Source: Fibrobacterota bacterium (GTDB lineage: Bacteria > Fibrobacterota > Fibrobacteria > UBA11236). From it: 36,185 nt of DNA. The stretch lies in the NCBI GenBank assembly GCA_028287465.1, contig JAQBPO010000034.1, forward strand, positions 1 through 36,185, read 5' to 3'. The notes below the pieces were generated by a model. The model was not told the origin of the DNA and did not search any database. It was given only the letters and a program-made list of their open reading frames with translations. Position numbers and translations under genes: made by a program. Below, in pieces: positions 11,398 through 28,583 of the stretch. The stretch's first letter is position 1. Each line of letters opens with the position of its first letter.

Positions 11398-13368
11398 ATG
11401 TGCGGCATAGCCGGCATCCTGATGCCCGAAGGCGCTCCCCTGGACGGAATGGTGTTGAGGCGGATGACCCGAACCCTCACCCATCGCGGACCCGATGAAG
11501 AAGGCTATTTCGAAAAGGACGGGATGGGGCTGGGCCACCGGCGCCTTTCCATCATCGACCTTTCCGGCGGCAAGCAGCCCCTGCACAACGAGGATTCCTC
11601 CGTCTGGACGAGCTTCAACGGCGAAATCTTCAATTACATCGAACTGCGCGAGGGCCTGATCAAGAAGGGTCATCGTTTCAGCACCCAGTCGGATACGGAA
11701 GTCATCGTCCACCTCTACGAGGAATACGGGACCTCCTTCGTCGACCATCTGAACGGCCAATTCGCCATCGCGCTCTGGGACATCCCGCGACGCCGCCTGG
11801 TCTTGACCCGGGACCGGGTGGGAATCCGCCCCCTATTCTATTCCCTCCGCCCGGACGGCGGGCTGATCTTCGCGTCCGAGATGAAAGCCATCCTCGAATA
11901 TCCCGGCGTCCCCCGGGAGATCGACCCGGTGGGGGTCGCCCAAATCACGAGCTTCTGGGTCAATATCCCTCCGCGAACGGTCTTCAAGGGCATCGAGGAG
12001 TTGGGGCCGGGACGCACCCTGGTGGCTGAGAACGGTTCCGTCCGGGTCATGCAGTATTGGCGCCACCGGTTTCCCGCGCGCAACGAGTACGAGGACAGGC
12101 CGTTGGAGCACTACCGGGAGCGCCTGCGAGAACTCCTATCGGATTCCATCACCCTGCAGCTGCGTTCGGACGTGCCCGTGGCCGCGTACCTGAGCGGCGG
12201 CATCGACTCCTCCATCATCTGCGCCTTGGCCAAGAAGCACCACATCAATGACCTCATCACGTTTTCCGTCGCCTTCACGGACAAGCGTTTCGACGAGCGC
12301 GAATACCAGATGCAAATGGTCGACCATCTCAGGACCGATCACCGGTGCATCGAGGTGGGCGAAGGGGACATCGGCAGGGATTTCGCGGAGGCGGTCTGGT
12401 TCGCCGAACGGCCCATGATGCGCACCGCCCCCGCCCCCCTGTTGGCGCTCTCGCGGCTGGTGCGAGGGAACGGGATCAAGGTGGTGCTCACGGGAGAAGG
12501 CGCCGACGAGATTTTCGGGGGCTACAACATCTTCCGCGAGGACAAGGTGCGGCGGTTCTGGGCCCGGCAGCCGGAATCGAAGTTCCGGCCCTTGGCGCTG
12601 GGCAAACTATACGGTTACATAGGCCGGGACAAGAATGCCTCCAACTTCTGGCAGCTCTTTTTCCGCAAGGGCATGGAGGACGTGGACAATCCGTATTATT
12701 CCCATCTCATACGCTGGAACAACTCCTCGCAAATGCGCCGCATCCTGCACCCGGACTTCCGCGCCGCGATGCCCACGGAAGACCAGCTGCTGGAGGATCT
12801 CAAGCCCTATCTGGATCCCGGCGTGGACAAGTGGCACCCGTTATGCCGGGCCCAGTACCTGGAGATGACCCTTTTCATGAGCGGCTACCTGTTGAATTCC
12901 CAGGGAGACCGCATGATGATGGGCAACTCGGTCGAAGGGCGGTACCCGTTCCTGGACCACCGCCTCATCGAATTCGCGGCCACCGTGCCCACCAAGTACA
13001 AGATCAACGGCTTGGAGGAGAAATACCTCCTCAAACGCTCCTTCGGGGATCTGGTGCCAGCCGCCATCGCGAACCGGCCGAAGAAACCCTACCGGGCCCC
13101 CATTGCCGCGTGCTTCCGGGAGGGGACCGGCCTCGCGGCGGATTCCATCGCTCCGCAGGCGCTGGAAAGCGCGGGATACGTCAAGGCGGACGCCTTCGCG
13201 CGCCTCATGGCGAAAAGCCGCCCGGGAGGTCCCGGGCTCGGCGAGCGGGACGAGATGGCCGTGGCCACCGTGACCTCGCTCCAGTTGCTGCATCGGTTCT
13301 TCATCGCAGACGGCGCGCGGTCGCGCGTCGTTCAATCGCATACCAAGGAGTCCGCTTCCCCGGAATGA
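11398..13368 (+). CDS. asnB: Asparagine synthase (glutamine-hydrolysing) family amidotransferase
   Basis: Class II glutamine amidotransferase plus ATP-dependent synthetase, 656 residues. The start at 11398 is required because Cys2 (M-C-G-I-A-G) must become the N-terminal nucleophile. The glutaminase domain (2 to about 200) has the typical LTHRGPD, GHRRLSI and FNGEIFNY motifs. The synthetase domain carries the PP-loop SGGIDSS from residue 266 and LTGEGADEIFGGY. In E. coli the family converts Asp to Asn, but many homologues in polysaccharide and secondary-metabolite clusters amidate other carboxylates. Here the ATGA overlap with an acyl carrier protein gene argues for such a specialised role, resembling amidotransferases of exosortase-associated polysaccharide loci. 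The family is certain; the substrate is unknown. Confidence 0.92.
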   Translation: MCGIAGILMPEGAPLDGMVLRRMTRTLTHRGPDEEGYFEKDGMGLGHRRLSIIDLSGGKQPLHNEDSSVWTSFNGEIFNYIELREGLIKKGHRFSTQSDTEVIVHLYEEYGTSFVDHLNGQFAIALWDIPRRRLVLTRDRVGIRPLFYSLRPDGGLIFASEMKAILEYPGVPREIDPVGVAQITSFWVNIPPRTVFKGIEELGPGRTLVAENGSVRVMQYWRHRFPARNEYEDRPLEHYRERLRELLSDSITLQLRSDVPVAAYLSGGIDSSIICALAKKHHINDLITFSVAFTDKRFDEREYQMQMVDHLRTDHRCIEVGEGDIGRDFAEAVWFAERPMMRTAPAPLLALSRLVRGNGIKVVLTGEGADEIFGGYNIFREDKVRRFWARQPESKFRPLALGKLYGYIGRDKNASNFWQLFFRKGMEDVDNPYYSHLIRWNNSSQMRRILHPDFRAAMPTEDQLLEDLKPYLDPGVDKWHPLCRAQYLEMTLFMSGYLLNSQGDRMMMGNSVEGRYPFLDHRLIEFAATVPTKYKINGLEEKYLLKRSFGDLVPAAIANRPKKPYRAPIAACFREGTGLAADSIAPQALESAGYVKADAFARLMAKSRPGGPGLGERDEMAVATVTSLQLLHRFFIADGARSRVVQSHTKESASPE

Positions 13369-13640
13369 ACATGGCCAACGAGAATACGCAAGAAATCAAG
13401 GCAAAGGTCAGGCGGTTCGTGATCGACAACTTCCTGATGGGGGACGCGCCATCCATGCTGAAGGATGGCGAATCCTTCATGGAGACGGGAACCATCGATT
13501 CCACCGGAGTCCTGGAAATCGTGACCTTCCTCGAGGAGGTGTTCCGCATCAAGGTGGACGATAAGGATCTGATCCCCGAGAACCTTGATTCCGTGGACAA
13601 CCTGGCCCGCTACATCGCCGGGAAAAACCATGCTGCTTGA
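13365..13640 (+). CDS. Acyl carrier protein (phosphopantetheine-binding)
   Basis: A 91-residue stand-alone carrier protein. The predicted 4'-phosphopantetheine attachment site is Ser46 in GTIDSTGVLEIV; the usual D-S-L is D-S-T here. The surrounding helices fit the ACP/PCP fold (FLEEVFRIKVDDKDL, then DSVDNLARYI). It starts with an ATG overlapping the asnB stop (ATGA), with AAGGAG 14 nt upstream; a second ATG at 13371 is possible. Its stop overlaps the start of the AMP-ligase gene. The pairing with a ligase directly downstream suggests that the ligase loads this carrier. It is unlikely to be the housekeeping fatty-acid ACP, because it lacks the D-S-L motif and sits in a specialised operon. Confidence 0.88.
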   Translation: MNMANENTQEIKAKVRRFVIDNFLMGDAPSMLKDGESFMETGTIDSTGVLEIVTFLEEVFRIKVDDKDLIPENLDSVDNLARYIAGKNHAA

Positions 13641-15201
13641 CCACTTCCTGGCGCATAGCGCGGCGCGGCATCCGGGCAAGACGGCCCTGATCTGCGGCGA
13701 TCGGCGCGCCACCTACGCGGAAGTGGATGAAGGCGCCAACGCCCTCGCCCGGGCCTACCTGGCCTTGGGCCTGAAGCGCCAGGAACGGGTCTGCATCTAT
13801 TTCGACAACTCGGTGGAAACGGTCCAGGGACTGTTCGCGGCCCTTAAGGCGGCCGGCGTCTTCCTGGTGGTCAACCCCGGGGTCAAGGGGGACAAGCTCG
13901 CCTACATCCTCGGCGACTGCGATGCCCTCATCCTGGTGACGGGCCGCCGCAACCTGAAGCCGGTCGAAGCGGAGGTGGCCGCGGTTCCCGGGCTCCGCCA
14001 CGTCATCCTTGTCGATTACGATGCCGAAGCCGGCGAGGATCCGGGCTCCGCTTTCCCGGTCCTACGGGCGGCGGGCAAGGACGTCCACGGCCTGGCTTCC
14101 CTGACCGCCGCCCAACCCCGGACCCCCCCGGCCAATCCGAACATCGATCTCGACCTCGCCAGCCTCATCTATACTTCCGGATCGACGGGCACCCCCAAGG
14201 GCGTCACCCTTACCCATCTCAACATGGTGGCCGCGGCGACCTCCATCACGGGCTATCTCGCGAACCAGGAGGAGGACATCATCCTGGCGGTCCTGCCCCT
14301 CGCCTTCGACTATGGACTGTACCAGGTGCTCATGGCCTTCAAGTTCGGCGGCACCGTGGTCCTGGAGAGGATGTTCCTGTATCCGGGAAGGTTCCTGGAA
14401 CTCATCGCCCGGGAAAAGGTGACGGGCCTCCCGATAGTGCCCACCATCCTGGCCATCCTCCTCAACCTCAAGGACCTCGAGGAGCATGACTTCTCTTCGG
14501 TCCGGTACCTGAGCAATACCGCCCAGGCCCTGCCCGTGCACCATATCGCGCGCCTGCGCCGGGTGATGCCCAAGGCCCGCATCTATTCCATGTACGGCCT
14601 CACGGAATGCAAGCGCGTCGCCTACCTGCCCCCCGAACTCATAGACAAGAAGCCCTCCTCCGTGGGAATCGCCATCCCGAATACGGAAGTATGGATCGAA
14701 GATGAGGAAGGCAATCGCATCACCGCCCCCTGGGCGCCCGGGGAATTGGTCGTGCGCGGCTCCCATGTCATGGTCGGGTATTGGAACAAGCCCGAGGAGA
14801 CGGCGAAATGCCTCAAGGCGGGTCCGAATCCCCACGAACGCATCCTCCGGACCGGCGACCTCTTCAAGCAGGACGAGGACGGCCACCTGTACTTCATCTC
14901 CCGCAAGGACGATCTCATCAAGACCGCAGGCGAGCGCGTGGGCCCCCGGGAGATCGAGAACGTCCTCTACGAGCTTCCGCAGGTGCGGGAAGCCGCCGTC
15001 ATCGGCGTGCCGGACGAAATCCTCGGCCAGGCCATCAAGGCCTTCCTGGCCCTGGCGGACGGGGCAATCCTGACGGATCTCGATGTCATCAAGCATTGCC
15101 AGAACCGCCTGGAAAAATTCATGGTGCCCAGGCACGTGGAATTCCGTCCCGAGCTTCCGAAGACGAATACGGGCAAGATCAGCAAAAAAGGATTGGCATA
15201 A
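13630..15201 (+). CDS. AMP-dependent acyl/aminoacyl ligase (ANL superfamily)
   Basis: Adenylate-forming enzyme of 523 residues that activates a carboxylic acid with ATP and transfers it to a thiol, probably the carrier protein encoded just upstream. The ATG at 13630 overlaps the carrier stop. Signature motifs: YTSGSTGTPKG (181-191), YGLTE (near 325), RTGDLFKQDEDG (near 415), RKDDLIKTAGERVGPREIE, and the C-terminal catalytic lysine in TGKISKKG. The order of domains and length are normal. It resembles the exosortase-A-associated acyl-CoA ligase family more than long-chain fatty acyl-CoA ligases, but I cannot confirm that by eye. The acid specificity is unknown. The stop is separated by 1 nt from the next start. 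Confidence 0.9.
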   Translation: MLLDHFLAHSAARHPGKTALICGDRRATYAEVDEGANALARAYLALGLKRQERVCIYFDNSVETVQGLFAALKAAGVFLVVNPGVKGDKLAYILGDCDALILVTGRRNLKPVEAEVAAVPGLRHVILVDYDAEAGEDPGSAFPVLRAAGKDVHGLASLTAAQPRTPPANPNIDLDLASLIYTSGSTGTPKGVTLTHLNMVAAATSITGYLANQEEDIILAVLPLAFDYGLYQVLMAFKFGGTVVLERMFLYPGRFLELIAREKVTGLPIVPTILAILLNLKDLEEHDFSSVRYLSNTAQALPVHHIARLRRVMPKARIYSMYGLTECKRVAYLPPELIDKKPSSVGIAIPNTEVWIEDEEGNRITAPWAPGELVVRGSHVMVGYWNKPEETAKCLKAGPNPHERILRTGDLFKQDEDGHLYFISRKDDLIKTAGERVGPREIENVLYELPQVREAAVIGVPDEILGQAIKAFLALADGAILTDLDVIKHCQNRLEKFMVPRHVEFRPELPKTNTGKISKKGLA

Positions 15202-15202
15202 A

Positions 15203-16177
15203 ATGGCTTTCACCAAGGCGGCCCTGGACCTCGATTGCGCCAAGGAGGCGGATCGCATCGGGGACGCCATGCGATCCCAGCTCCGGGAATCACGGCGCAA
15301 AGGCCTCGTCCTGGGCCTTTCCGGCGGCATCGACAGCAGCGTCACCGCGGCCCTGGCCGTGCTCGCCCTGGGCAAGGATCGCGTTTTCGGAATCTTCATG
15401 CCCGAGCGCGACTCGGATCCCGAGACCATGCATTTCAGCCGCATGATCGCCGAGCACCTCGGCATCCGCACCGCGACCGAGGACATCAGCGATGCCCTGG
15501 AAGCCGTTGGCTGCTACCGCCGCCGGAACGAGGCCGTGGCCACGGTCCTTCCCGGATTCACCCCGGAGTGGAAGTTCAAGATCGTGCTGCCCGGCCCCGA
15601 CCATGAAGGTTTCAACTTCTATTCCGTGGTGGCCCAGGGCCCGCGGGGAGAGGAAGCGAAGGAGCGCCTGCCCCTCAACGCGTACCTCACCATCGTCGCC
15701 GCGACCAACTTCAAGCAGCGCATCCGGAAGATGATGGAGTATTACTACGCGGACAGCCTGAATTTCGCGGTGGCCGGCACCCCCAACCGCCTGGAATTCG
15801 ACCAGGGCTTCTTCGTGAAGCAGGGTGACGGAGCGGCGGACATAAAGCCCATCGCCCACCTCTACAAGACCCAGGTATACGACCTGGCCGCCTATCTGGG
15901 AGTGCCCGAACCCATCCTCCGCAGGCCTCCCACCACGGACACCTACAGCATGCCCCAAAGCCAGGAAGAGTTCTACTTCAGCCTGCCCTACGGCAAGATG
16001 GATCTGTGCCTGTGCGGCTTCAATGCCGGCGCCTCCGCGGCGGAAGTGGCTACGGCGGCCGGACTCACGGAATCACAGGTGCAGCGCGCCTTCAAGGACA
16101 TCGAAACCAAACGCTCGACAACGCGTTACCAGCACCTCAAGCCACGGCTCGTGGAGGAGATACCCAATGTCGGCTGA
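15203..16177 (+). CDS. NAD synthase-like ATP pyrophosphatase (NadE family), probable specialised paralogue
   Basis: A 324-residue protein of the NadE family, which forms an amide on an adenylated carboxylate using ammonia. The PP-loop SGGIDSS is residues 40-46, and the family block GDGAADIKPIAHLYKTQV is near 212-229. It has no glutaminase (nitrilase) domain, so would need free ammonia or a partner. The usual sAGLWxGQTDE segment is replaced by a PPTTDTYSMPQSQEE segment, and there is an extra stretch near 100-150 containing an LPGPDHEGFNFY segment. These differences and the operon suggest that it amidates another substrate, but genuine NAD synthase activity cannot be excluded, as no other nadE is in view. 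AAAGGA lies 10 nt before the ATG. It overlaps the methyltransferase gene by 11 nt. Confidence 0.85.
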   Translation: MAFTKAALDLDCAKEADRIGDAMRSQLRESRRKGLVLGLSGGIDSSVTAALAVLALGKDRVFGIFMPERDSDPETMHFSRMIAEHLGIRTATEDISDALEAVGCYRRRNEAVATVLPGFTPEWKFKIVLPGPDHEGFNFYSVVAQGPRGEEAKERLPLNAYLTIVAATNFKQRIRKMMEYYYADSLNFAVAGTPNRLEFDQGFFVKQGDGAADIKPIAHLYKTQVYDLAAYLGVPEPILRRPPTTDTYSMPQSQEEFYFSLPYGKMDLCLCGFNAGASAAEVATAAGLTESQVQRAFKDIETKRSTTRYQHLKPRLVEEIPNVG

Positions 16178-16982
16178 AACGGTCCGGAAATACGATGCGG
16201 AGAAATACTGGGCGGAACGCTACAAGGAGATCGATATCTCGAAATCGGGACACATCGATCTTCCGGTGGCCTATAACCAATGGCTGTACCGGCGCAAGAA
16301 GGAGCGCCTTTTGCAGGGGCTGGTCAAGGCCGGATTCGATCCCAAGGGCGCTTCGGTGCTCGAAATCGCCGCAGGTACGGGCGTTTACGTGGAAATGTGG
16401 AAGTCCCTGGGCGTCGGCAAGCTTTGCGGCATGGACATCAGCCAGAACGCGATCGATGCCTTGTCCGTCCGCTTTCCCGGCTACTCCTTCCACAAACGCG
16501 ACCTCACGGATCCCGGGCTTTCCTCCCTGACCGGCGGCGGCTACGACCTCGTTACCGCCGTGGACATGCTTTACCATATCGTCGACGATGGGGATTTCCC
16601 GGCGGCCCTGGCGAACCTGGCCGAAACCTGCCGGCCCGGAGGCCTCCTCGCCATCCACGACTTCTTCATGCACCATCGGGAAATGGACTTCGGCTATATC
16701 AAGCTCCGGACCCTTAAGGATTACCAGGCAGCGCTCGCCAAGGCGGGATTCGAAATCGTCTCCCGGACCCCTACCTTCTTCTTCACGGTGCAGACCTATG
16801 ATCACAAGTCGCCGGACACCAAAAAGGCCATGGACAGGCTATGGTCGCGCCTGGTCTTCCCCTTCATCAACGGCAGGCCGGACCTGGCCGGGCGCCTGGG
16901 CTATTACAGCGACAAGATCCTCGGAAGCCTCCTGAAAGAGGGCCCATCCTTCGAAATGATGGTTTGCCGTCGCAAGGCCTAG
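16167..16982 (+). CDS. Class I SAM-dependent methyltransferase
   Basis: A 271-residue Rossmann-fold methyltransferase. Motif I is VLEIAAGTGVY (64-74), the acidic residue binding the SAM ribose is probably Asp90 (GMDIS), and the post-motif region VTAVDMLYHIVDD and RPGGLLAIHDF match the UbiE/Methyltransf_11 type. The ATG at 16167 lies inside the end of the NadE-like gene and has GGAGGAGA at good spacing, so the two are translationally coupled. The N-terminal part (YWAERYKEIDISKSGHIDLP) looks like substrate-recognising helices of small-molecule methyltransferases. The substrate is unknown, presumably the product of the upstream enzymes. Confidence 0.88.
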   Translation: MSAETVRKYDAEKYWAERYKEIDISKSGHIDLPVAYNQWLYRRKKERLLQGLVKAGFDPKGASVLEIAAGTGVYVEMWKSLGVGKLCGMDISQNAIDALSVRFPGYSFHKRDLTDPGLSSLTGGGYDLVTAVDMLYHIVDDGDFPAALANLAETCRPGGLLAIHDFFMHHREMDFGYIKLRTLKDYQAALAKAGFEIVSRTPTFFFTVQTYDHKSPDTKKAMDRLWSRLVFPFINGRPDLAGRLGYYSDKILGSLLKEGPSFEMMVCRRKA

Positions 16983-16987
16983 GATAG

Positions 16988-17581
16988 ATGTCGTCGATTA
17001 AAACCTTCTACTGGGCCGTGCTGATGGACGTAGCCGGGATGTGGTTCTGGTTCCTCAGCAAGCTGCCGGGAAACACCGGGATCGCCCTGCGGGCCCTTCT
17101 CATACCCCCTCTCCTGGGCGCGTGCGGCAAGCGGCAGACCATCCAATTGAACCTGCGCGTGGCCAATCCCGAGAAGCTCCGCATAGGCAACGATTGCAAT
17201 TTCGGGCAAGGGGTGTTCATCACCGCGGGGGGCGGGGTGACCTTGGGGGATTTCGTCGGCATGGGACCGGACGCGAAGATCTGGTCCGTGAACCACCGGT
17301 TCGAGGATCCAGGCGTCCCCTGGCTGACCCAGGGATACGAGAGCAAGGAAGTCGTCATCGAGGACGATGTCTGGATCGGCGCGAATGCCTTCATCATGCC
17401 GGGCGTCCATATCGGAAAGGGCGCCATCATTTCCGCGGGATCGGTCCTATCCAAATCGGTGCCCGCCTTCTCCATAGTAGCGGGCAATCCAGGGCGCGTG
17501 ATCGGATGGCGGAAGAAGCCGGAAGCGGGAATCGAGGGCGGGGACGGAAAGGCCGCGGGGCCGGAAGAGGCCGCCGCCTAG
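16988..17581 (+). CDS. Hexapeptide-repeat (left-handed beta-helix) acetyltransferase
   Basis: A 197-residue O- or N-acyltransferase of the LbetaH/maltose-O-acetyltransferase type. A hydrophobic N-terminal segment (about residues 7-45) may sit on the membrane. The beta-helix starts near residue 52 with imperfect hexapeptides (IGNDCNFGQGVFITAGG, VTLGDFVGMGP), continues through the catalytic His103 in SVNHRF, and ends with VWIGANAFIMPGVHIGKGAIISAGSV and IVAGNPGRVI. Its ATG lies 5 nt after the methyltransferase stop. It is the last gene of the six-gene operon. The family typically acetylates sugars in capsule, O-antigen or exopolysaccharide synthesis, which supports a surface-glycan or glycolipid role. 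Convergent with the CotH-fusion gene; no terminator is visible in the 18-nt gap. Confidence 0.88.
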   Translation: MSSIKTFYWAVLMDVAGMWFWFLSKLPGNTGIALRALLIPPLLGACGKRQTIQLNLRVANPEKLRIGNDCNFGQGVFITAGGGVTLGDFVGMGPDAKIWSVNHRFEDPGVPWLTQGYESKEVVIEDDVWIGANAFIMPGVHIGKGAIISAGSVLSKSVPAFSIVAGNPGRVIGWRKKPEAGIEGGDGKAAGPEEAAA

Positions 17582-17599: not shown

Positions 17600-20212
17600 C
17601 TAGCGCTTCGCGATGATTTCCAGGCAGATGGCCTTGTGAGCCGAGGTCACCTCGGTGATCCCGCCCAGGTCGAGCTTGGTCACGTCATATCCGAGGGCAT
17701 CGTAGATCGATAGGGCCGCCAGCAGGTTGCCTACTCCGGCGAAATGGCCCCCGTCGGGCAGGATCGCGGCGGAGAAACCGATGCGGGCGACCAGGTCCTT
17801 GATATTACGGTCCACCTCGGCGATATGAACGCGGATGCCTTCCGATTGGAGCGCGGCGACCTTCGCCCGCAGAACCGAATTGTATTCCGTCCAATCGCGG
17901 AAATCCTGCGCCTCCCTCCGGAAGGAATAGGCCGTCTCCGTGGATATCACGGCCTTGGGAGAGCCCGCCCTCACCGTCCGCACCATGGCCAGGAAGGTCC
18001 CGCCGAATTCCGCCGGAGTCCTTTGGCCGTCCAGGTTCTGGTTGCCGCTTTCCTGGAAGTGGACCCAGGAGGCCGAGGATTTTTCCGCACGGCCATTGTA
18101 CATGGCCTTGGTTCCGGCCAGGGGTTGGCCGGAAATCCCCATCGCCAGGAGGTCCGGGTTCCGGGCGTAAGTGGAGGCGAAGATCGTCTTGAAGGCCGTG
18201 CCCGGGCTCAGGACCGCGCCTTCCGCGCGGCCCCCGGTCTCGCTGTCCCCCACGTGGATCCAATCGAGGCCCAAAGGGACCGCTCCGGTTTCCGGCTTGA
18301 CGGGGGCCGGCTTGAAGGGAGCCGGCGCGAAACGGGCCCGCAGGGAAAGCGGATTATCCAAGGTCGTTTCCAGGACCGGATCCGTTGAGGGCTTCGAACC
18401 CAGGGTCCATCCCTTGAAGGCGAAGCCCGGTCTGGGGACGGCGGTGAAGCGGAGCCGCATCCCCCGGTAATAGCCTCCCGACCAGGGCGAGGCCGGCAGA
18501 CTGGCCTCGTTCACGCGGACGGAACCCCAAGCGGTATCGAATGCGACGTCCACCTTGATGGCTTCGCCCAGGCCGAACACCCGCTCCAGATGGCTCCGCA
18601 CCACGGCGGGACGGTCATGGATGAATCCGCGCATCAGCCCCTGGTCGGCCCGGAAGGAGCTGTCGGTCAGTCCCCACCGTTTCCAGTCCCTGGGCAGATC
18701 CGAGCGGGAAAGCGCGAGAATGCTGTCGAGCAGGGCTTCCACCCTTTCGGGCCGGAACTCCGTATTGAGCAGGTCCGTGAAACGCGTGACGAACGCCGAT
18801 TTGAATTCCGGGTTCGCGAGGAGCTTGCGCATGAACAGGGTGGATACCAGGAAGGTCCCTTCGTCCTCATAAAGCCCCTTCTCGTAATTATGCTTCAGGT
18901 CGTTGCGGATCCGATCGCGGATGGCCCATTCGAGGGTCGCGTGCCCTACCTTGCCGCCCCCGAAATCGAAGGTGGCGTCCGCGTCCCAGCTGATCCAGCG
19001 CCAACGGCCGTCCCCGTCGACCTTCCGGAAAACCGTCATGTTATTGTAGGGCCAATCGATATTGGCGGCATAGACGTTATGGGCCCAATAATCGATGAGG
19101 CTCGGGAAGTCGAGGAGCTCCCCCGCCTTCGCGTAGGCTTCCGCGCGGGTGAGATCGCTCCCCTGGAAAAAGCGCACCGTTTCCTTCCATGCCTTTTTCT
19201 TCCCGATGATGGAGGTGGCCCAATCGTTCCGGTGCTTGGAATCGAAGGCGAGGAGCTCGTACTTCCCCGGCCCGAAGCGCGCTTCCAGGAAATCCCCGTC
19301 CACGTATTCGCGCGCGTCGTAGATGCCCCAATAGGCCCCGTTCAGGTAGACCGTAACGGGCTCGAATCCAGAGGCGATGCCTCCCGACCGCCGATACAAT
19401 GCCGAGAACAACTCGTCCCGCAGGCGATGCCGGCTATTGCTCCCCCCCGCCCGGAGCACTACGGTCCGTTCGCGGCCTACCCCCCGGGGAACCAATATGC
19501 CCCTTTCCGCCGCCCCGGCATCCCTATCCAGGACGGGATAGCGGAGCCGGAAGGATTTCTTGGGATGGGTGCGGGAGTATCCGCCATGCACCCGGATGCG
19601 CCCTTTGGATATCCAGGCGGCCTGCCCGGGAGCCCTGAGCACCTCGAAGTCCACGGGCCGTTCCCATTCTTCGCCGGACTTCCTGGGGTTCTCGTAGATG
19701 CCCGAGTATTTGTTCCAGAGAGTGACCGGGTCCATGACCAGGGAGACCACGGGCATGCCCGGCCTCGGTTCCAGGAAATACGTCCCGGAGACGGTGGGGC
19801 CTGGAAGCAATCCCCGCTTCAGGATGCGGGCGCGCACCACCGTGGTGCTTTCGATCGAAAGGGGTCCGGTGTAGACGGCGCTGTAATGATCGGGGATGCT
19901 GCCGTCCAGGGTATAGCGGATTTCCTCCCTCCCGGGAGCGGAAAGGACAACCCTCGTATGGGAGGAGGCGAATCCCCCCTTGGGATCCATGGCCACTTCC
20001 GGCGGCGTCGCATCCGATCCATGACCGGCGAAGCGGTCATCGACCCTCGGCAGTTTGCGCGCCTTGAGCTTGCGCTCGAACTCCTGGAAGTTCTGCTGAT
20101 TGAGTCCCCATAACTGGCGGCGGACGCCCCGCGCGGATTCCATCCGGCCGAACAGCAGGACGGCCAGCCCGACGCCTCCCATGGAGAAGGCGAGCTTCCA
20201 GGCGGGCCTCAA
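17600..20212 (-). CDS. Fusion protein: chitobiase-type domain + CotH kinase + SGNH hydrolase
   Basis: An 870-residue envelope protein. A TTG start at 20212 is chosen because GAAGGGA lies about 7 nt upstream; it follows the DUF4956 stop by 10 nt. A hydrophobic anchor (8-21) precedes a chitobiase/beta-hexosaminidase C-terminal-type domain (about 68-148; IRYTLDGSIPD), a CotH kinase domain (about 150-545; NGAYWGIYDAREYVDG, ISWDADATFDF at 407-417) and a small beta domain (560-630). The end is an SGNH-like hydrolase (645-868) with GDSE (Ser657) and DGGH (Asp820, His823). CotH proteins are atypical kinases that phosphorylate spore-coat or surface proteins; SGNH enzymes are esterases. The operon with VTC and DUF4956 proteins is a recurring one, but this three-part fusion looks unusual. 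Function is inferred. Confidence 0.85.
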   Translation of the reverse strand: MRPAWKLAFSMGGVGLAVLLFGRMESARGVRRQLWGLNQQNFQEFERKLKARKLPRVDDRFAGHGSDATPPEVAMDPKGGFASSHTRVVLSAPGREEIRYTLDGSIPDHYSAVYTGPLSIESTTVVRARILKRGLLPGPTVSGTYFLEPRPGMPVVSLVMDPVTLWNKYSGIYENPRKSGEEWERPVDFEVLRAPGQAAWISKGRIRVHGGYSRTHPKKSFRLRYPVLDRDAGAAERGILVPRGVGRERTVVLRAGGSNSRHRLRDELFSALYRRSGGIASGFEPVTVYLNGAYWGIYDAREYVDGDFLEARFGPGKYELLAFDSKHRNDWATSIIGKKKAWKETVRFFQGSDLTRAEAYAKAGELLDFPSLIDYWAHNVYAANIDWPYNNMTVFRKVDGDGRWRWISWDADATFDFGGGKVGHATLEWAIRDRIRNDLKHNYEKGLYEDEGTFLVSTLFMRKLLANPEFKSAFVTRFTDLLNTEFRPERVEALLDSILALSRSDLPRDWKRWGLTDSSFRADQGLMRGFIHDRPAVVRSHLERVFGLGEAIKVDVAFDTAWGSVRVNEASLPASPWSGGYYRGMRLRFTAVPRPGFAFKGWTLGSKPSTDPVLETTLDNPLSLRARFAPAPFKPAPVKPETGAVPLGLDWIHVGDSETGGRAEGAVLSPGTAFKTIFASTYARNPDLLAMGISGQPLAGTKAMYNGRAEKSSASWVHFQESGNQNLDGQRTPAEFGGTFLAMVRTVRAGSPKAVISTETAYSFRREAQDFRDWTEYNSVLRAKVAALQSEGIRVHIAEVDRNIKDLVARIGFSAAILPDGGHFAGVGNLLAALSIYDALGYDVTKLDLGGITEVTSAHKAICLEIIAKR

Positions 20213-20222
20213 GACGATCCCT

Positions 20223-20924
20223 TCAAAGAAGCGCGCCCTGGCTGTTGAAGTAGATGTTCAACCGCTGGACCGGCGCGATGTCGGTGAGGGTCCGGTGCAT
20301 GCCGTCCAGGGACGCTCCATCCATCCCATTGAAGGAAAAGTGGATGGTGGTGAGGTTCTCCGCGTAGGTGATGCCCTGCAAGCGGCCGCGCGTCAGCTTT
20401 TCCTTGAGATGGCCCACCAGCCTCTCCTTGCTTTCGGGGGCCACGTCCCCGCTCAGGGTGAGGAGCAGGATCCCGTCGGAGCGCTTGGAGCGGAACCAAC
20501 CCGGAACGTACCGCTGGAGCGTCAGGGCCGCCAGGGCCAGCAGCAGCAATACCAGGAGCAGCATGAACTGGAAGGTGGCGCAGACCACGGAGCAGGCGAT
20601 GAGCAGCATGATGAAACCGACCTCTTCAGGCTCTTTCACGGGCGTACGGAAACGGATGATGGAAAGCGCTCCCAAAAGGCCGAGGGAAAGGGGGAGCGAG
20701 AATTGGATCGCGATGAACAAGGCGGTGATGGACGGGGAGATCAACAGGAAGCTCCTGTGGATCTGGGATCCCGTGGCCCGGTTCTCGTAGAACATCTGAT
20801 ACATGGCGGACACGGCCACGCCTACGAAGGCGGAGACGATCAAGGCGAAGAGGAAGCCCGTCAGGTCGACCTCGATGCTGGGGTCCTGTACTAGCCGGCC
20901 GATTTTTTCGAGAACCTCGTTCAT
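20223..20924 (-). CDS. DUF4956 family multi-pass membrane protein
   Basis: A 233-residue membrane protein. The ATG at 20924 overlaps the VTC gene stop (ATGA). Hydrophobic segments are near residues 22-42, 62-80, 82-95 and 108-140. The block LGLLGALSIIRFRTPVKEPEE is characteristic of DUF4956, and a soluble C-terminal domain (about 150-233) follows. The family has no established biochemical role but repeatedly occurs beside VTC-domain and CotH genes, so the three probably act together at the membrane. It lies in the middle of that operon here. Confidence 0.85.
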   Translation of the reverse strand: MNEVLEKIGRLVQDPSIEVDLTGFLFALIVSAFVGVAVSAMYQMFYENRATGSQIHRSFLLISPSITALFIAIQFSLPLSLGLLGALSIIRFRTPVKEPEEVGFIMLLIACSVVCATFQFMLLLVLLLLALAALTLQRYVPGWFRSKRSDGILLLTLSGDVAPESKERLVGHLKEKLTRGRLQGITYAENLTTIHFSFNGMDGASLDGMHRTLTDIAPVQRLNIYFNSQGALL

Positions 20925-21625
20925 TTGATTCCTTTTGACGTGGGCTGCAAGAGGCCTTCCAGGCACTCCGCATATTTCGAGAACGCGCGCTTATGCAGTA
21001 AGGCGGCGATCGGCGCCTGGGACGCGAGCAGGAACCGCGAAGGGCCCTTCTGCTCCAGCACCCCGCAGTCCAGGTGGACCGGGGGGTTGAGGTTGAATAG
21101 ATCCAGATTGGCCCTCAGGCACCGGATTCCGGTGTCGAGGGAGAGGCGCGAACCGGTTTCCGGATCCACGTAGCGGAACCGCCGATAGCGGATTTCCGCT
21201 ACGGGAACCAGGGTCCCGGGCGGGAAATAATCGAGTTCGAAGGCGCGGGCGGCGAGCTCCCATATCCGGGGATTGCCGAAGAGGTCGCCTTCCAGGGTTT
21301 CCGCGGGCAGGGATACGGCCTGGCGGCCTTTGCGGCGGACCGCCCCGGATTTCCGTTTAACCTCGAGATAACAGGTAACGGGTCCGGACGGCTGGGCATC
21401 AGGGGATTCATACCAACGAAGCCTGACCTTGGTCTTCTGGTAATCGCTATTGCGCTTCTCCTCGAGGAGATGGAGCGAAGGGGTATCGAAATAGACGCTG
21501 CGGATCTCCCCCAGGTAATGCGCCGGGTCACGGGCGAACCGGAATTCCATCCAATCCCGCACGGCCTCCGCCTGCCCGAGCGGGAAGACGAATTTCTGCT
21601 CGATGGCTTCCTGGAAGATCTCCAT
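20921..21625 (-). CDS. VTC-domain protein (polyphosphate polymerase-like)
   Basis: A 234-residue soluble protein of the VTC/CYTH-like triphosphate tunnel group. In yeast, the VTC4 homologue makes polyphosphate from ATP. The visible family pattern is a series of beta-strands carrying basic and acidic residues: EQKFVFP near residue 9, SVYFDT (43-48), KVRLRWY (66-72), CYLEVKRKSG, EIRYRRFRY and LSLDTGIRC. The alternating Arg/Lys/Glu residues that line the tunnel are kept, so activity on a triphosphate or polyphosphate is plausible. No SPX or membrane domain is fused. It sits 14 nt behind the PfkB gene and overlaps the DUF4956 gene. No strong ribosome-binding site is visible, which suggests translational coupling. 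Confidence 0.85.
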   Translation of the reverse strand: MEIFQEAIEQKFVFPLGQAEAVRDWMEFRFARDPAHYLGEIRSVYFDTPSLHLLEEKRNSDYQKTKVRLRWYESPDAQPSGPVTCYLEVKRKSGAVRRKGRQAVSLPAETLEGDLFGNPRIWELAARAFELDYFPPGTLVPVAEIRYRRFRYVDPETGSRLSLDTGIRCLRANLDLFNLNPPVHLDCGVLEQKGPSRFLLASQAPIAALLHKRAFSKYAECLEGLLQPTSKGIK

Positions 21626-22924: not shown

Positions 22925-24364
22925 ATGTCCGGATCCGATAAGAGTCCTTCCCCCCGCAAAACCCCGTTATGGGTGGGGATAATGCTGATGGCCGCGCTGG
23001 GAGCGATGGCCCAGGGGAAGGATACCCCGGAATCGGATGCGGAACTGGAGGTGCGCTACCAGAAGATGGTGGCCCAACGGGAAGCCCTGGCCAAGCAGCG
23101 GGCCCTGGCCGCGGCTGCTGCGGAAGCGGCGGAGGCCGAAGCGCGGGAAAAGGCCGCCCGGGGACAACGCGATCGGGCCAAGGCGGAAAGGGAAACCCGC
23201 GCAGGCGCCCCGGACGTCCAGACCGCAAGCCCGGACGGCGCGGGCAGCGGTCCGGCGCAGATCCTCGACCTCACGGACTCCCTCCTCATCGCCCGCGCTT
23301 GGGAAACCCTCTTTCCGGACTCCTCCCTCCCGGCAGGGGAATACCAGATCCTCATCCCCGCGGGGCCGGAGCTTTCCACCGGACGGTCCTATTCCGCCAC
23401 CGTCTACCTGCTCCGGAACGGCACCGAAGCGGGGCATATGGACCGCTCGGCCTGGGAAACCCTGTCCACCATGTCCTCCAACGAATCGGAAGGCGGATGG
23501 GCCGAGGCGATGGAAGGACCGGAAAGGCAAGACGTCCCCTTGCTCTGGAAATCGTTCAAATGGGAAGGCCATACCCTCCTGGATTGGGCGGAATGGCCGG
23601 GAGAAGCCACGGCGGGAATGGGGACCGCGGTCAGTTCCATCCCTTCCTCCAAACCCCAGATCCAAAGGGACATCGATTTCACCTGGAGCCAGAAACTGTA
23701 CGGGCATTTCCTGCTGGGCGGGGAATTGCATCGGATCCAATTCGGAGGCGGGCTGACCCGCATGGGGGCCGCCGTGGCGGATACCTCCTTCGGCAAATCT
23801 CCCTTGGTCCTGTCGCATGACTTCTGGAGCGAAGCGGATTGGTCCTGGGGCCTTGCAGCGGGCGTTCCCGGATTGAAATACACCCTTTCCCTCGCCAGCG
23901 GTCCCCTTCCCCGGTACTTCTGGATGGAGCCCGGGGCGGCGGCCGCCATCCGCCAGCACAAATCGGGGCGCGTAGTGAACCAATGGAAGGGAACGGTCAT
24001 GGAGAGGGAGGGTAACCTGTCGCATACCCTTGATGCGCGCCTGGGGATCCTGCGCTACGGTTTCCATTTCGACTCGGACGCCTATCGCGTGCCGATCCAG
24101 ACCTTCGCCTTGGACGATCTCCCGGCGGTTTTCGGGACCTGGGGCGCCGGCCTGGTGATGGCCTCGGACATCCTCGCCACCAGGGTATGGATGGACATCC
24201 CCGACGCCTCCCTGAGGCTGGGCATGCCTAAAGCGTATCCTTCCCGTTTCCGCATCGCCTTCCTCCATCTCGACCTGGCCTACCGCAACCTCCGGAACTT
24301 CAATCTGGGGGTATCGGTGCGCGTCAAGGTGGAAAACCCAATCATGAACCGACCCGGAGCTTGA
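22925..24364 (+). CDS. Exported protein with Ala/Glu/Arg-rich coiled coil and beta-rich C-terminus
   Basis: I do not recognise a family. The 479-residue product has a positively charged start and a hydrophobic signal segment (about 15-28, with AMA-Q as likely cleavage site). A long charged helix follows (about 38-95; many Ala, Glu, Arg and Lys), probably a coiled coil. A Gly/Pro/Ser linker covers 95-112, and a mostly beta-type domain fills the rest, rich in Trp, Gly and Ser. Segments in the last third (YKAGL-like alternation, LHLDLAYRNLRNFNLGVSVRVKVEN) resemble amphipathic strands of an outer-membrane protein, but the C-terminus does not end in an aromatic residue. Its stop is 2 nt before the start of the ExbB/MotA-like gene, so it belongs to that operon. 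It may be a periplasmic partner of that motor. Confidence 0.65.
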   Translation: MSGSDKSPSPRKTPLWVGIMLMAALGAMAQGKDTPESDAELEVRYQKMVAQREALAKQRALAAAAAEAAEAEAREKAARGQRDRAKAERETRAGAPDVQTASPDGAGSGPAQILDLTDSLLIARAWETLFPDSSLPAGEYQILIPAGPELSTGRSYSATVYLLRNGTEAGHMDRSAWETLSTMSSNESEGGWAEAMEGPERQDVPLLWKSFKWEGHTLLDWAEWPGEATAGMGTAVSSIPSSKPQIQRDIDFTWSQKLYGHFLLGGELHRIQFGGGLTRMGAAVADTSFGKSPLVLSHDFWSEADWSWGLAAGVPGLKYTLSLASGPLPRYFWMEPGAAAAIRQHKSGRVVNQWKGTVMEREGNLSHTLDARLGILRYGFHFDSDAYRVPIQTFALDDLPAVFGTWGAGLVMASDILATRVWMDIPDASLRLGMPKAYPSRFRIAFLHLDLAYRNLRNFNLGVSVRVKVENPIMNRPGA

Positions 24365-24366
24365 GC

Positions 24367-25500
24367 ATGAACACGAGTACGAGTCCCACTTTCAGGTTGT
24401 CCGAGGATCCGCTCAACCAGGCCAAGCGGCAGCTGATCCGGATCAAGAAACTGGCCCGCAACACCTCCTTCGTCCCCATCCCCGTGGTCGCCTTCGCGGC
24501 TTTCGCCTTCTTCAAGTACGAGATGCATTGGTACTCCAATCCCTTCCTGGCCGTCATCTTCGCCATCTTCGCGACGGGGCAGGTCATGGCCGTATTCCAG
24601 ATGCGGAGGGTGCTGGCCGGAGTCCACAGCACGGGCAAATCCATCACCGTGCTCGCGGAGGCCGGCGACGAGCCCGACCTTCCGGTCCTCCGCGGCAAGC
24701 TCCTGGAAAACGCGCCTCCCGGCCATATGCGCGACCTGCTCCTGCGCTGGATCGAACTCGGCATGCGGGGGGAGACCACGGGTTCCGAGTCCCTGTTGAA
24801 CAATGCCTGGGATCGCCGGGCCCATCACGACAACAGTTCCGTCTCCCTGCACGTATCCATGAACCGGACCACCCTCAAGCTCGGCTTCCTGGGTACCCTG
24901 TACGGCCTCATCCTCACCTTCCCGCCCATGCAGCGCGCGGTCATGGGCCTCTCCGACAGCGATGGAGAACTGCGCTTCATCAAGGACATCTCCATGGCCA
25001 TCGACGGCGACGAGTTCGCCATCGCCGTGACCCTGGGAGCCACCGCCCTTTCCATCCTCATCGAATTGGTGACCATCCAGATCCTGGAACGGGCCTTGGG
25101 CGGGTTCGACATGGTGAACAGCCATATCAACGATTGGAACCTGACCCGCCTGCAACCCTGGGTGAAAAAGCGCTACGGCGCGGATTCGCGCCTGCGCCAT
25201 TCCCCGGAATCCCAGGCAGCCCTGGACGCCAAGCTGGCCCGCGCGCACCAGGAGATCGACGCCAATCTGGGACGCGCCCTGGAAGCCATCGCCCGCACCA
25301 CCAAGCAACTCGACCAATTGGCCATGGTCCAGACCGCGGTAGGCCGGCGGATCGCCGAACTGGTCGAGTACGAGAAGCAATACCGCGGATTCATCGAATC
25401 CAAGACCGCGGCGGTCGCTCCCTTGCCGCCCCATAACCTGGATACCGGCCGGCTCGAAACCAGCCACATCGACAATGCCCGGCTCGAGGACGGACTGTGA
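24367..25500 (+). CDS. MotA/TolQ/ExbB-like proton-channel protein (divergent)
   Basis: A 377-residue inner-membrane protein. Hydrophobic segments lie near 34-50, 58-78, 168-186 and 216-240. The second pair contains the family hallmark: LGFLGTLYGLILTF (172-185), then AIAVTLGATALSILIELVTIQILER (219-242 region), as in the pore-lining helices of ExbB, TolQ and MotA. A cytoplasmic loop separates the pairs, and the C-terminus (about 265-360) is a long charged helical tail. In known systems five such subunits surround an ExbD/TolR/MotB dimer and turn proton flow into mechanical work. The next gene supplies an ExbD-like partner. The ATG at 24367 follows the upstream stop by 2 nt. Homology is by pattern; TonB, Tol and Mot partners are not seen. 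Confidence 0.75.
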   Translation: MNTSTSPTFRLSEDPLNQAKRQLIRIKKLARNTSFVPIPVVAFAAFAFFKYEMHWYSNPFLAVIFAIFATGQVMAVFQMRRVLAGVHSTGKSITVLAEAGDEPDLPVLRGKLLENAPPGHMRDLLLRWIELGMRGETTGSESLLNNAWDRRAHHDNSSVSLHVSMNRTTLKLGFLGTLYGLILTFPPMQRAVMGLSDSDGELRFIKDISMAIDGDEFAIAVTLGATALSILIELVTIQILERALGGFDMVNSHINDWNLTRLQPWVKKRYGADSRLRHSPESQAALDAKLARAHQEIDANLGRALEAIARTTKQLDQLAMVQTAVGRRIAELVEYEKQYRGFIESKTAAVAPLPPHNLDTGRLETSHIDNARLEDGL

Positions 25501-26054
25501 GCGCCTTCCGGCGCGGCCGCGGCGGCGGGGCCCGCGTGGAGATGGGCGAAGCCATTTCCTTCGAGGACGTCCTCACCGTCATGACCGTCCTGCTGCTCCT
25601 GCGCCTGGTATTCATGGTGCCCCTGGTCAACCTGGACAAGGCCAAGACCATCGCGGCCCGCGCGGACAAGTACTGGTCCCTGCAGGCGCTTTACGTCCTG
25701 ACCCATGGCGGGGACTCGACCCGGGTCCAGCCTTACCGCACCGCCTTCGGCCTGGAAGGGAAGGCGTCCATGGTCAGCGAATCGGGGAACGGGAAGACGG
25801 TCTTCCTGGAAGCCGCGGCTTCCGACAGCACCCTGACCGTCCTCCGCCACGATCCCGAAACCGGAAGCTTCATCTCCATGAACGTGGCGGGGCAAGGGCA
25901 TTCCGTAAGCTTCCGCCGCGGCAAACTCATCTGGAGCAAGGACGAAGCGGAGTGGTTCCCGGCCTCGGACAGCGTCGACTACGGTACGCGTCAGGAGAGC
26001 AGGGAGATGGAACGGGGATTCAGGGAGTGGACGAAGGCGAAGAGGGGTTATTAG
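25497..26054 (+). CDS. ExbD/TolR-like single-pass membrane protein (divergent)
   Basis: A 185-residue protein with a basic N-terminus (RRGRGGGAR), one membrane segment (about 24-44) and a soluble, presumably periplasmic, domain rich in beta-strand residues. The start of the segment, ISFEDVLTVMTVLLLLRLVFMV, mirrors the ExbD/TolR pattern in which an Asp at the head of the helix carries protons; here Asp24 would be that residue. An Arg (36) inside the helix is unusual. The GTG start at 25497 overlaps the stop of the ExbB-like gene (GTGA) and has GAGGA about 6 nt upstream, so the pair is translationally coupled, as expected of channel subunits. The C-terminal domain is not recognisably ExbD, so family membership is inferred from the segment and the context. 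Confidence 0.6.
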   Translation: MSAFRRGRGGGARVEMGEAISFEDVLTVMTVLLLLRLVFMVPLVNLDKAKTIAARADKYWSLQALYVLTHGGDSTRVQPYRTAFGLEGKASMVSESGNGKTVFLEAAASDSTLTVLRHDPETGSFISMNVAGQGHSVSFRRGKLIWSKDEAEWFPASDSVDYGTRQESREMERGFREWTKAKRGY

Positions 26055-26080
26055 GTCGCATGGAGCGTAGAAGAGAAAAC

Positions 26081-26224
26081 TTTTGAAAATCGCAAATCGA
26101 AAATGAAAATTGAAACCAGCATGACGAAGAAGAAGGATTTCCGCGTAGCCTACGGGATACGTCCGCAAGCAATCGGGCTTTCCTCCAATTTGCATTTTTC
26201 AATTTTCGATTCTCAATTTGCAAA
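26081..26224. repeat. AT-rich imperfect inverted repeat overlapping a gene start
   Basis: Two AT-rich arms of about 35-40 nt (26081-26115 and 26185-26224) are imperfect reverse complements; the best part is ATCGAAAAT...(26096 on) against the complement of 26195-26210. The arms flank about 70 nt of GC-richer sequence that holds a small palindrome (CGTAGCCTACG). The composition differs sharply from the surrounding GC-rich genes. This resembles a small intergenic repeat or MITE-like element. It covers the presumed start of the next gene. Confidence 0.6.
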
Positions 26225-28583
26225 ACTCCTCCTCTGTTCCCTGCTTTTCACGATGGCCGCATCGGCCAAAAACGGTTCCGAACCCCTCAACCACTACGGC
26301 CTCACGACCCTCCAGGACACCGCAATCGGCGTCAAGCTGCAGGGCCGCTTCAAGGCCAAGGGCCAGCCCGTCTTCCTGATCCACGACCCCAACCTGGGCC
26401 TGATGCAGGGGGATATCATGCGCTTCCAGGACAAGGCCGTGCTGGTGGACGCGGACGTATGGCAGACCCTGAACGACGAAGGCGCCCTGGGACGGCTCAA
26501 GGTGGCGCCGATGGTCAGGGTGCAGGCCAAGGCCACCGTCCCCGCCTGGGAGACCCGCTCCAAGCTGGTCACGGGCCTGCGCGAGAAGAAGGCGTACCAG
26601 CTGGGCGCGGAGCTGCTGAAGATCCTGGAGGAGACTTTCGGGGGCGTTCCGACGCGGCAGCAGATGGCCATCGTCTTCGATGGATCCAGCCTCGTCCTGA
26701 TGGCGCCGGACGAGTTCCTGGATCAGCTGAAGTATGCGACGGTCCGGCGCGTGCCTCCCGCGGGCAAGCCCCAGTTCCTCTCCCCGCCCCCGGGCCGGAT
26801 GTTCGCAGGGCAACCCTTCCGGTGGCAGGCGTGGGCCGCGGATCCGGCCGAACCCGCCGGCATGCTGCGCTATTCCCTGTTCGGCGATCTCCCAAAAGGC
26901 CTGGCCTGGGACGCGGCCTCCCACACCCTCATCGGGGCGCCGGAATCCGAGGGCCAATGGCGCGTCACGGCCGAGGCCCGCAACAATTCGGGAACATACG
27001 ACACCATGGGCTTCAACCTGACCGTACGCCGCAACGTGGCGCCGGCCCTGGCCCATGGGCCCAAGCCGGTGGCGGTGGCGGGACAGATGTGGAGCTACCG
27101 GGCCGAGGCGGTGGATCCGGATCATGAAGGGTCGGACATCCGCATCTCGGCCCTGAAGATGCCCTACGGAATGGAATTCGATTCCACCGCCAGGCTTTTC
27201 AAATGGTATCCGCCGGACAGCGCGGTAGGGCGGAACCTGGAATTGGCCTTACGCCTGGAGGATCCCGCCGGAGGCAGGACCGACAGCGTCTTCCCCCTCA
27301 AGGTCATCCCGGCTTCGGACATGCTGTGGAGCGAAGGGATCAAGCCCACCCTGCCCTGGGACACCTTGAACCAAGGGAAGACCTATACGTGGGAGGCGGG
27401 CGCTTCCGCCATGGCCTGGGCCCAACAAGGCATCACCCTGGCGGATGTGAGCGGCCCGGACTTCACCGGGTTCCGCGAAGGATCCCTGACCCTGAGGCCC
27501 ATGGCCGCCGGGACCCTGGTGCTGACCTTCGCGTTCGATGTCCAAGGCAAACGCCTGGAGCAGACGGTGCAATTGCCCGTGCGGCCGGACCTGGCCCCAC
27601 GCTTCGCGAGCGAAGTGGGCGCCTGGCGTTTGCGAACCGGGCAACCGGCGAGCTACCGTCCCGTGGCGGTCGACGGGGAGGGCGATCCCGTTACCATGCG
27701 GGCCGAATCCCAGGATGGGCAGCTCTCGTGGGACGGGCAGCGCTTGCTGTTGGCGCCGGAGGCCCCGGGAACCTACGCCGCGCGCCTGATCGCTTCCGAT
27801 CCGGCCGGGCACCTCGCGGGACAATGGGTTTCCTATAAAGTGGAGCGGGCGGAGCGCCCCACGGCGTGGTTCCTGGAGAACCGCATCCAGGGCGGCATCA
27901 GCACCTGGGCGGTGACGGCGGATTTCGGCACGGGCCGCATGGGGATCTTCACGCCCAACCTGGATCGCATCGGCGTCAAAGGCGTCAGCGGGGCACGCAT
28001 GTGGCCTTACCTGTTCTTCGGCGGGAACCTGATGGGCCGAGCGAACGAGAACCGGGGCAGGCGCCTGTGGATCGATGCCGGGCTCACCATGCGCATGCCG
28101 GACGAGAAAGTCGCCACCGGCGGCGTGTTCGGAAGGCTGACGGGGGAATGGACCTTCCCGGGCCAGGCCTTGGGCAAAATCGAATTCGAGATGCAAGGCC
28201 ACGTGAACCAGGCCTTGGTCGTGGCCGATACGTCCAACCTCCAGGTGATTTACGGCGATGCGATCCTGCAATTGGCCCAGGACTTCAACCGGGTCATCGA
28301 CGGCATCATCCAGGAAGCCACGGACAAGGAAAACATGGTCCTGTATACCCGCCTGGAAGCCTGGAGCCGCCTGGGCGCGGGCTTCTGGGCCGGACCCGGA
28401 ATCTGGCGCGAAGAGATCCCCAACGCCCACAAATATTACCAACGCCTGGGGGGCGGCCTCCGGTACCAGTCCCGCTTGGGCGAGGCCATCGCCGCCAACA
28501 GCCTCCGGGTGGGATGGGGCGCCGGCGGGGCGGGATGGAGCGTCTACTGGACCGGACGGGTCTCCATCTATTCTCCCTTCTGA
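26103..28583 (+). CDS. Large exported protein with Ig-like (putative-Ig/cadherin-like) repeats and barrel-like C-terminus
   Basis: The product is up to 826 residues. The signal segment is residues about 41-55 (LLLCSLLFTMAASA-K), unusually far from the first ATG, because about 40 residues are encoded by the inverted repeat at 26081-26224; no ribosome-binding site precedes any ATG here, so the start is uncertain. After an N-terminal domain (60-215) come three or four Ig-like repeats of the putative-Ig type (about 218-310, 312-410, 420-510, 515-590; motifs such as PKGLAWDAASHTLIGAP and PYGMEFDSTARLFKWYPP). The last 240 residues have alternating strands, many Gly/Trp/Tyr and a terminal Phe (SIYSPF), as in outer-membrane barrels. 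It closes the ExbB/ExbD-like operon and is probably its outer-membrane partner. Confidence 0.7.
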   Translation: MKIETSMTKKKDFRVAYGIRPQAIGLSSNLHFSIFDSQFAKLLLCSLLFTMAASAKNGSEPLNHYGLTTLQDTAIGVKLQGRFKAKGQPVFLIHDPNLGLMQGDIMRFQDKAVLVDADVWQTLNDEGALGRLKVAPMVRVQAKATVPAWETRSKLVTGLREKKAYQLGAELLKILEETFGGVPTRQQMAIVFDGSSLVLMAPDEFLDQLKYATVRRVPPAGKPQFLSPPPGRMFAGQPFRWQAWAADPAEPAGMLRYSLFGDLPKGLAWDAASHTLIGAPESEGQWRVTAEARNNSGTYDTMGFNLTVRRNVAPALAHGPKPVAVAGQMWSYRAEAVDPDHEGSDIRISALKMPYGMEFDSTARLFKWYPPDSAVGRNLELALRLEDPAGGRTDSVFPLKVIPASDMLWSEGIKPTLPWDTLNQGKTYTWEAGASAMAWAQQGITLADVSGPDFTGFREGSLTLRPMAAGTLVLTFAFDVQGKRLEQTVQLPVRPDLAPRFASEVGAWRLRTGQPASYRPVAVDGEGDPVTMRAESQDGQLSWDGQRLLLAPEAPGTYAARLIASDPAGHLAGQWVSYKVERAERPTAWFLENRIQGGISTWAVTADFGTGRMGIFTPNLDRIGVKGVSGARMWPYLFFGGNLMGRANENRGRRLWIDAGLTMRMPDEKVATGGVFGRLTGEWTFPGQALGKIEFEMQGHVNQALVVADTSNLQVIYGDAILQLAQDFNRVIDGIIQEATDKENMVLYTRLEAWSRLGAGFWAGPGIWREEIPNAHKYYQRLGGGLRYQSRLGEAIAANSLRVGWGAGGAGWSVYWTGRVSIYSPF

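Follow-up and report, generated by a model that had tools for sequence, protein, structure and literature searches.

The window considered here, meaning the whole stretch of DNA that was analysed, is a 36,185-nucleotide contig (C82; GenBank JAQBPO010000034.1, assembly GCA_028287465.1) from a 5.8 Mb, 98% complete genome of the phylum Fibrobacterota (lineage UBA11236), and the subject of this report is a cassette of four genes, designated A to D, that lies on its + strand. Gene A (22925..24364) encodes a 479-residue exported beta-rich protein with a signal peptide, an Ala/Glu-rich linker and a conserved C-terminal beta domain; gene B (24361..25500), a divergent channel subunit of the MotA/TolQ/ExbB type, with 379 residues if read from a TTG; gene C (25497..26054), a 185-residue single-helix periplasmic subunit that is placed as an ExbD would be but does not have its fold; and gene D (26103..28583), a predicted outer-membrane stalk protein of 826 residues from its first ATG, a start that is uncertain. 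An initial annotation, made from the sequence without database searches, had pictured four co-directional genes, the first three overlapping or nearly touching, with no TonB, TolA, Pal or MotB domain among them, and this layout is borne out. All four open reading frames are found on the + strand, and Pfam finds no TonB, TolA, Pal/OmpA or MotB domain in A to D. The likely start of B is ATG 24367, because the B proteins of relatives begin MNTTPNF, and this leaves 2 nucleotides (nt) between A and B; C, which starts at GTG 25497, shares 4 nt with the end of B, and some 48 nt separate C from the first ATG of D. Among relatives, the A-B and B-C spacings range from -8 to +64 nt.

The ratio of nonsynonymous to synonymous substitution rates (dN/dS), taken against four close relatives, lies between 0.07 and 0.32 for all four genes; with the two nearest relatives it is 0.07-0.11 for B, 0.10-0.14 for C, 0.13 for D and 0.24-0.30 for A. 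These values imply constraint at the protein level on every gene, with A evolving fastest, and A to D are confirmed as real genes under purifying selection. Scans for promoters and terminators gave no excess over shuffled sequences.

The closest public sequences come from metagenome-assembled genomes of Fibrobacteria/Fibrobacteres. Relatives of the cassette were sought with B, and genes were then called around each match. The four genes form one conserved, co-inherited unit: the order A-B-C-D on a single strand is found at all 21 loci examined. Seventeen of these are the cassettes of as many Fibrobacterota genomes, three are second, complete copies that some of these genomes also carry, and the last comes from a genome (G266) of a different phylum. 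Gene order and strand are the same at 20 of 20 Fibrobacterota loci; in G266, A, B, C and the start of D are present, and D runs off the end of the contig. That phylum is represented by G266 only, and no further carrier around it was met in 386 sampled genomes. When pairwise distances are compared among the four proteins, they correlate at r = 0.92-0.97. The initial annotation had named partners not conserved beside the motor genes as grounds for giving up its proposal; they stand together throughout. The second, diverged but whole cassettes belong to three genomes of the window's genus, including the window's own, at L022:5161-11710 (own genome, contig C73), L031:4221-10764 and L033:3-6116. 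All three are followed by a lipoprotein of about 500 residues without a Pfam family, cut by the contig end in L033; the main cassette has no such gene.

Distribution within the phylum is patchy (17 of 168 Fibrobacterota genomes), and no member of the large genus g4, which would be Fibrobacter, carries the cassette. Matches to B in 13 further genomes are canonical ExbB-type proteins at weak E-values. Flanking genes differ between families, so that only A to D are conserved; neighbours were considered as functional partners and set aside, those in the window's genus being a PfkB kinase and a rhomboid, and those in other families being different and mostly housekeeping-looking genes. Neither Pfam nor NCBIfam names the cassette, and the passages searched on Fibrobacteres genomics, MotAB evolution and periplasmic force transducers hold no description of the set.

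Protein B carries four hydrophobic segments and a cytoplasmic helical tail with a nearly invariant YExxYR motif. All 14 B members scanned give sub-threshold matches to PF01618 (MotA/TolQ/ExbB) at E <= 1, with a best E of 2.4e-4; the B of the window scores 12.5 bits against a gathering score of 22.9. Profile-profile comparison with hhalign places B with nine canonical ExbB/TolQ proteins, six of them from its own genome (which encodes ten canonical MotA/ExbB proteins), at P = 4.7e-9, as compared with 0.018-0.15 for unrelated membrane proteins used as controls, and the B profile recovers canonical ExbB-type proteins of about 210-240 residues in other genomes at 1e-4 to 1e-6. In the aligned core, the second and third hydrophobic segments of B fall on transmembrane segments TM1 and TM2 of ExbB, and a global alignment extends this to TM3; B therefore has one extra N-terminal segment.

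The best-conserved parts of B across the 21 sequences are its own TM3 and TM4, and Thr179, Thr186, Thr224, Thr228 and Glu235 are invariant in all of them. Thr179 (24895..24897, + strand) aligns with the threonine of the LLGT motif of canonical ExbB/TolQ, and Thr228 (25042..25044, +) with that of LxAT; these are the two threonines that line the pore of ExbB and TolQ. A conserved threonine ring is a feature of a TolQ-type motor described elsewhere (PMC12204202). Glu235 (25063..25065, +) lies in the last hydrophobic segment, at a site that is non-acidic in the aligned canonical proteins. Alignment at the levels of profile and residue shows B to be a divergent member of the MotA/TolQ/ExbB superfamily in which both pore threonines are kept, and the ExbB/MotA-like channel subunit of the initial annotation stands. 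Sequence matches in the PDB between the B tail and the coiled coils of viral fusion proteins were discarded (E > 0.02, heptad composition).

Compared with ExbB-ExbD and TolQ-TolR, B is homologous in its TM2-TM4 core and keeps the pore threonines, and C has the same gene position and topology as their second subunits; the differences are the extra N-terminal hydrophobic segment, the longer cytoplasmic tail and the invariant Glu235 of B, the missing ExbD domain of C, and a cassette with neither TonB nor TolA. The initial annotation had called C an ExbD-like subunit with Asp24 at the head of its single helix, a description that survives in part. The transmembrane segment, a putative transpore helix, spans residues 22-44 (25560..25628, +), and the Glu23-Asp24 pair (25563..25568, +) sits at its cytoplasmic head. 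Asp24 is indeed present in the window, but conservation falls on Glu23: every member has E in column 23 except one, which has D, whereas column 24 varies among D, E, S and N. PF02472 (ExbD) is unmatched in 14 C members at E up to 1, and Pfam gives no match in C to TolR, OmpA-like (MotB-type) or vWA profiles.

The AlphaFold2 model of C (mean predicted local distance difference test, pLDDT, of 82) has a long helix at residues 22-56, two short helices, a six-stranded meander and a C-terminal helix. A PDB fold search with this model returned nothing at E <= 0.001, and no ExbD/TolR or vWA fold stood among the listed matches. Comparison of the C helix with canonical ExbD helices gave P = 0.0035, with Asp24 falling on the ExbD Asp, and controls gave 0.12-0.96. 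Judged from sequence and model, C is ExbD-like in position, topology and helix-head acid only, and not in family or fold. The initial annotation had also offered a failure of the membrane proteins to align with ExbB/ExbD as its refutation; B does align with ExbB in profile comparison, and C fails to align with ExbD, TolR or MotB by sequence family or by fold.

It could be asked whether C belongs to a motor at all, or is an unrelated one-helix protein, B then needing no partner or using an ExbD encoded at another locus. The missing ExbD domain and fold would suit that idea, as would the ExbD-type proteins that are encoded elsewhere; against it, C directly follows B at 21 of 21 loci, often overlapping it, and an acid is kept at the helix head in every member, which leaves the idea decidedly improbable. 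A published parallel for a replaced second subunit is the TolQ-type pentamer paired with TPH-vWA partners, which are non-ExbD transpore-helix proteins (PMC12204202, Mol Biol Evol 2025). Shared with that motor are an ExbB/TolQ-superfamily subunit, a neighbouring partner with an acid-bearing ExbD-like transpore helix and no ExbD/TolR domain, and the retained threonine ring. The present system differs in that C has a six-strand meander and not vWA, that a single C gene stands in place of a heterologous pair, that B is far below the Pfam cut-off, that two exported partners accompany B and C, and that the conserved acid comes one residue earlier.

Signal-peptide-like N-termini are found on A and D in most members. 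The initial annotation had made A an exported coiled-coil/beta protein; export and beta-richness hold, but the Ala/Glu-rich coiled-coil stretch is peculiar to the window's species, and the conserved part is the beta-rich C-terminal portion of about 350 residues. Amphipathic strands are conserved in A, which matches no Pfam family and is possibly an outer-membrane barrel. The large Ig-repeat protein with a barrel-like end, as D had been described, is supported. It is predicted to comprise an N-terminal alpha/beta domain (residues 65-211; 26295..26735, +; AlphaFold2), four immunoglobulin (Ig)-like domains (residues 223-581; 26769..27845, +; Pfam and AlphaFold2) and a C-terminal 12-strand outer-membrane barrel (residues 585-826; 27855..28580, +; AlphaFold2). 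Pfam identifies the Ig domains (He_PIG, 1.1e-9), whose number varies between members, and the model of D gives 12 consecutive strands over residues 588-822, mostly at pLDDT 80-93. A fold search with D returned Ig-type proteins and was uninformative on the barrel or the N-domain, and the proposal that the N-domain of D, or A, is related to C or to the D barrel was dropped for want of profile similarity. With the predicted barrel of D and the N-termini of A and D, the set would span inner to outer membrane, much as had been suggested.

Mean identity within D is 0.60 for the N-domain, 0.44-0.55 for the Ig domains and 0.45 for the barrel, and the N-domain, being the best conserved, therefore fits a docking part. 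With an even number of strands, and with the last of them at the end of the protein, the N-terminal part would be periplasmic unless it is exported like an autotransporter passenger. The latter possibility underlies an alternative in which D is an autotransporter-like adhesin that displays its N-domain and Ig repeats outside the cell, with B and C energising export or a gliding-like movement. The classical autotransporter layout is a C-terminal 12-strand barrel after an N-terminal passenger, and D likewise has 12 C-terminal strands after its N-terminal part; Ig repeats are common in adhesins, and the best PDB sequence matches of the D stalk are the Ig domains of a bacterial adhesin. Yet there is no autotransporter Pfam match in D, its model passes from the last Ig strand directly into the barrel without the usual pore helix, and the domain that would be outermost is the best-conserved part of the protein, unlike typical adhesin tips, so that surface display of this kind is considered unlikely.

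The preferred reading, to which we assign a probability of roughly 0.62, is that A to D form a four-gene proton-driven trans-envelope machine in which a B/C motor acts on outer-membrane partners. In such a machine, five B subunits would surround a C dimer, protons would pass between Thr179/Thr228 of B and Glu23 of C (with Asp24 where present), and C would turn or shift against B as they pass. Its periplasmic domain could then transmit the motion to D, and perhaps to A. The most likely receiver would be D, with its barrel in the outer membrane and an Ig stalk bringing the N-domain near C; four Ig domains are about 16 nm long, and a stalk reaching C in this way would make TonB or TolA unnecessary. 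A would be a further partner, in the outer membrane or the periplasm, and perhaps a gated barrel. The contact of D with C is considerably less certain than the motor step.

Several points weigh against this assembly. The four-helix topology of B rests on hydropathy and alignment; the link between C and ExbD is short and weak, with the classical Asp position not conserved and Glu23 one residue away on the helix; the outer-membrane location of A is only inferred; and the D model has a predicted template modelling (pTM) score of 0.37, so that the relative placement of its domains is not fixed by the model. Proton flow, B-C binding and the D-C contact are likewise inferred.

An inner-membrane motor with outer-membrane partners is also the general plan of Ton and Tol systems, and the cassette might thus be read as Tol-Pal-like or TonB-like, serving outer-membrane stabilisation or powered uptake with D or A in place of TolA or TonB. 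However, a TolQ-TolR-TolA-like-TolB set is encoded separately in the same genome (L087), and TolB is present in most genomes with the cassette; the cassette itself has no TonB/TolA domain and no conserved neighbour beyond A to D. The barrel of a TonB-dependent receptor has 22 strands, from which the predicted 12-strand barrel of D differs, and the patchy distribution (see above) speaks against an essential role. A Tol- or Ton-like function is accordingly quite unlikely.

Other envelope motors resemble the proposed machine in part. In type IX secretion, GldL-GldM is an ion-driven inner-membrane motor that is joined to the outer membrane by a periplasmic beta-domain stalk, a plan of motor and beta-domain stalk that the cassette would share; there the stalk belongs to the inner-membrane subunit GldM, whereas the Ig stalk of the cassette is predicted to be part of the outer-membrane protein D. 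Neither GldL nor GldM appears among the general Pfam or NCBIfam matches of the cassette proteins, no direct profile comparison having been made. The ZorAB anti-phage motor likewise has an ExbB-type channel with a cytoplasmic helical tail, but the cassette contains no MotB-type partner; a defence role of the ZorAB type was rejected, with a weak NCBIfam match to the ZorA tail only and PADLOC matching none of A to D. The AglRQS-Glt machinery of Myxococcus gliding (PMC3169522) couples an ExbB-type inner-membrane motor to envelope proteins that reach the outer membrane. However, AglQ and AglS match PF02472 and GltG bears a TonB-like motif, neither of which has a counterpart in the cassette, and two ExbD-type subunits stand beside the TolQ-type subunit there in place of a single non-ExbD C. 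Elsewhere in the genome of the window, at L090:5057-7937 and L092:4598-7529, a TolQ-type gene precedes a pair of ExbD-type genes and a gene for another envelope protein, a layout that resembles the Myxococcus gliding motor arrangement.

The cassette could also serve as an add-on to one of the known machines for motility or secretion (the flagellum, type IX secretion or Agl/Glt gliding) and not stand alone. Flagellins occur in 15 of 17 cassette genomes as against 49 of 151 others (Fisher 1.1e-5, confounded by shared ancestry), and nearly all genomes of the phylum carry SprA, the type IX translocon gene. But two carriers (G006 and G009) have no flagellin, 35 flagellated genomes outside family f3 have no cassette, SprA is uninformative in being present with or without it, and the genes recognised beside the cassette include none of flagellar, type IX or Glt type; an accessory role appears very improbable. 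Since Tol-Pal is encoded separately and SprA is near universal, neither Tol-Pal nor type IX secretion explains the cassette. The gliding, secretion or polysaccharide-handling roles offered in the initial annotation found no positive support in this analysis.

The proton-driven 5:2 motors make up a small and well-studied group, in which almost every axle subunit is of the ExbD, TolR or MotB type. Read as a trans-envelope machine, the cassette is apparently an undescribed envelope motor of ExbB type with a non-ExbD axle and two co-inherited envelope partners. More tentatively, and as a possibility that we regard as rather less than even, it may represent an undescribed class with inverted wiring, in which the outer-membrane barrel protein D bears the stalk that reaches the motor and the axle, C, bears a new periplasmic domain and uses Glu for the canonical Asp, all without TonB, TolA, ExbD or a peptidoglycan-binding part. 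With a replaced axle subunit and envelope partners that travel with it, the cassette would offer a compact four-gene system for the conversion of proton flow to work at the outer membrane, in a phylum with few cultured members.

Two other regions of the window were noted. Adjacent genes on the - strand (17600-21625) encode a VTC-domain protein, a DUF4956 membrane protein and a CotH-kinase protein. On the + strand (11398-17581), asparagine synthase-, acyl carrier protein- and AMP-ligase-like genes were recognised by eye together with further small-molecule genes; this cluster may serve biosynthesis or surface modification.

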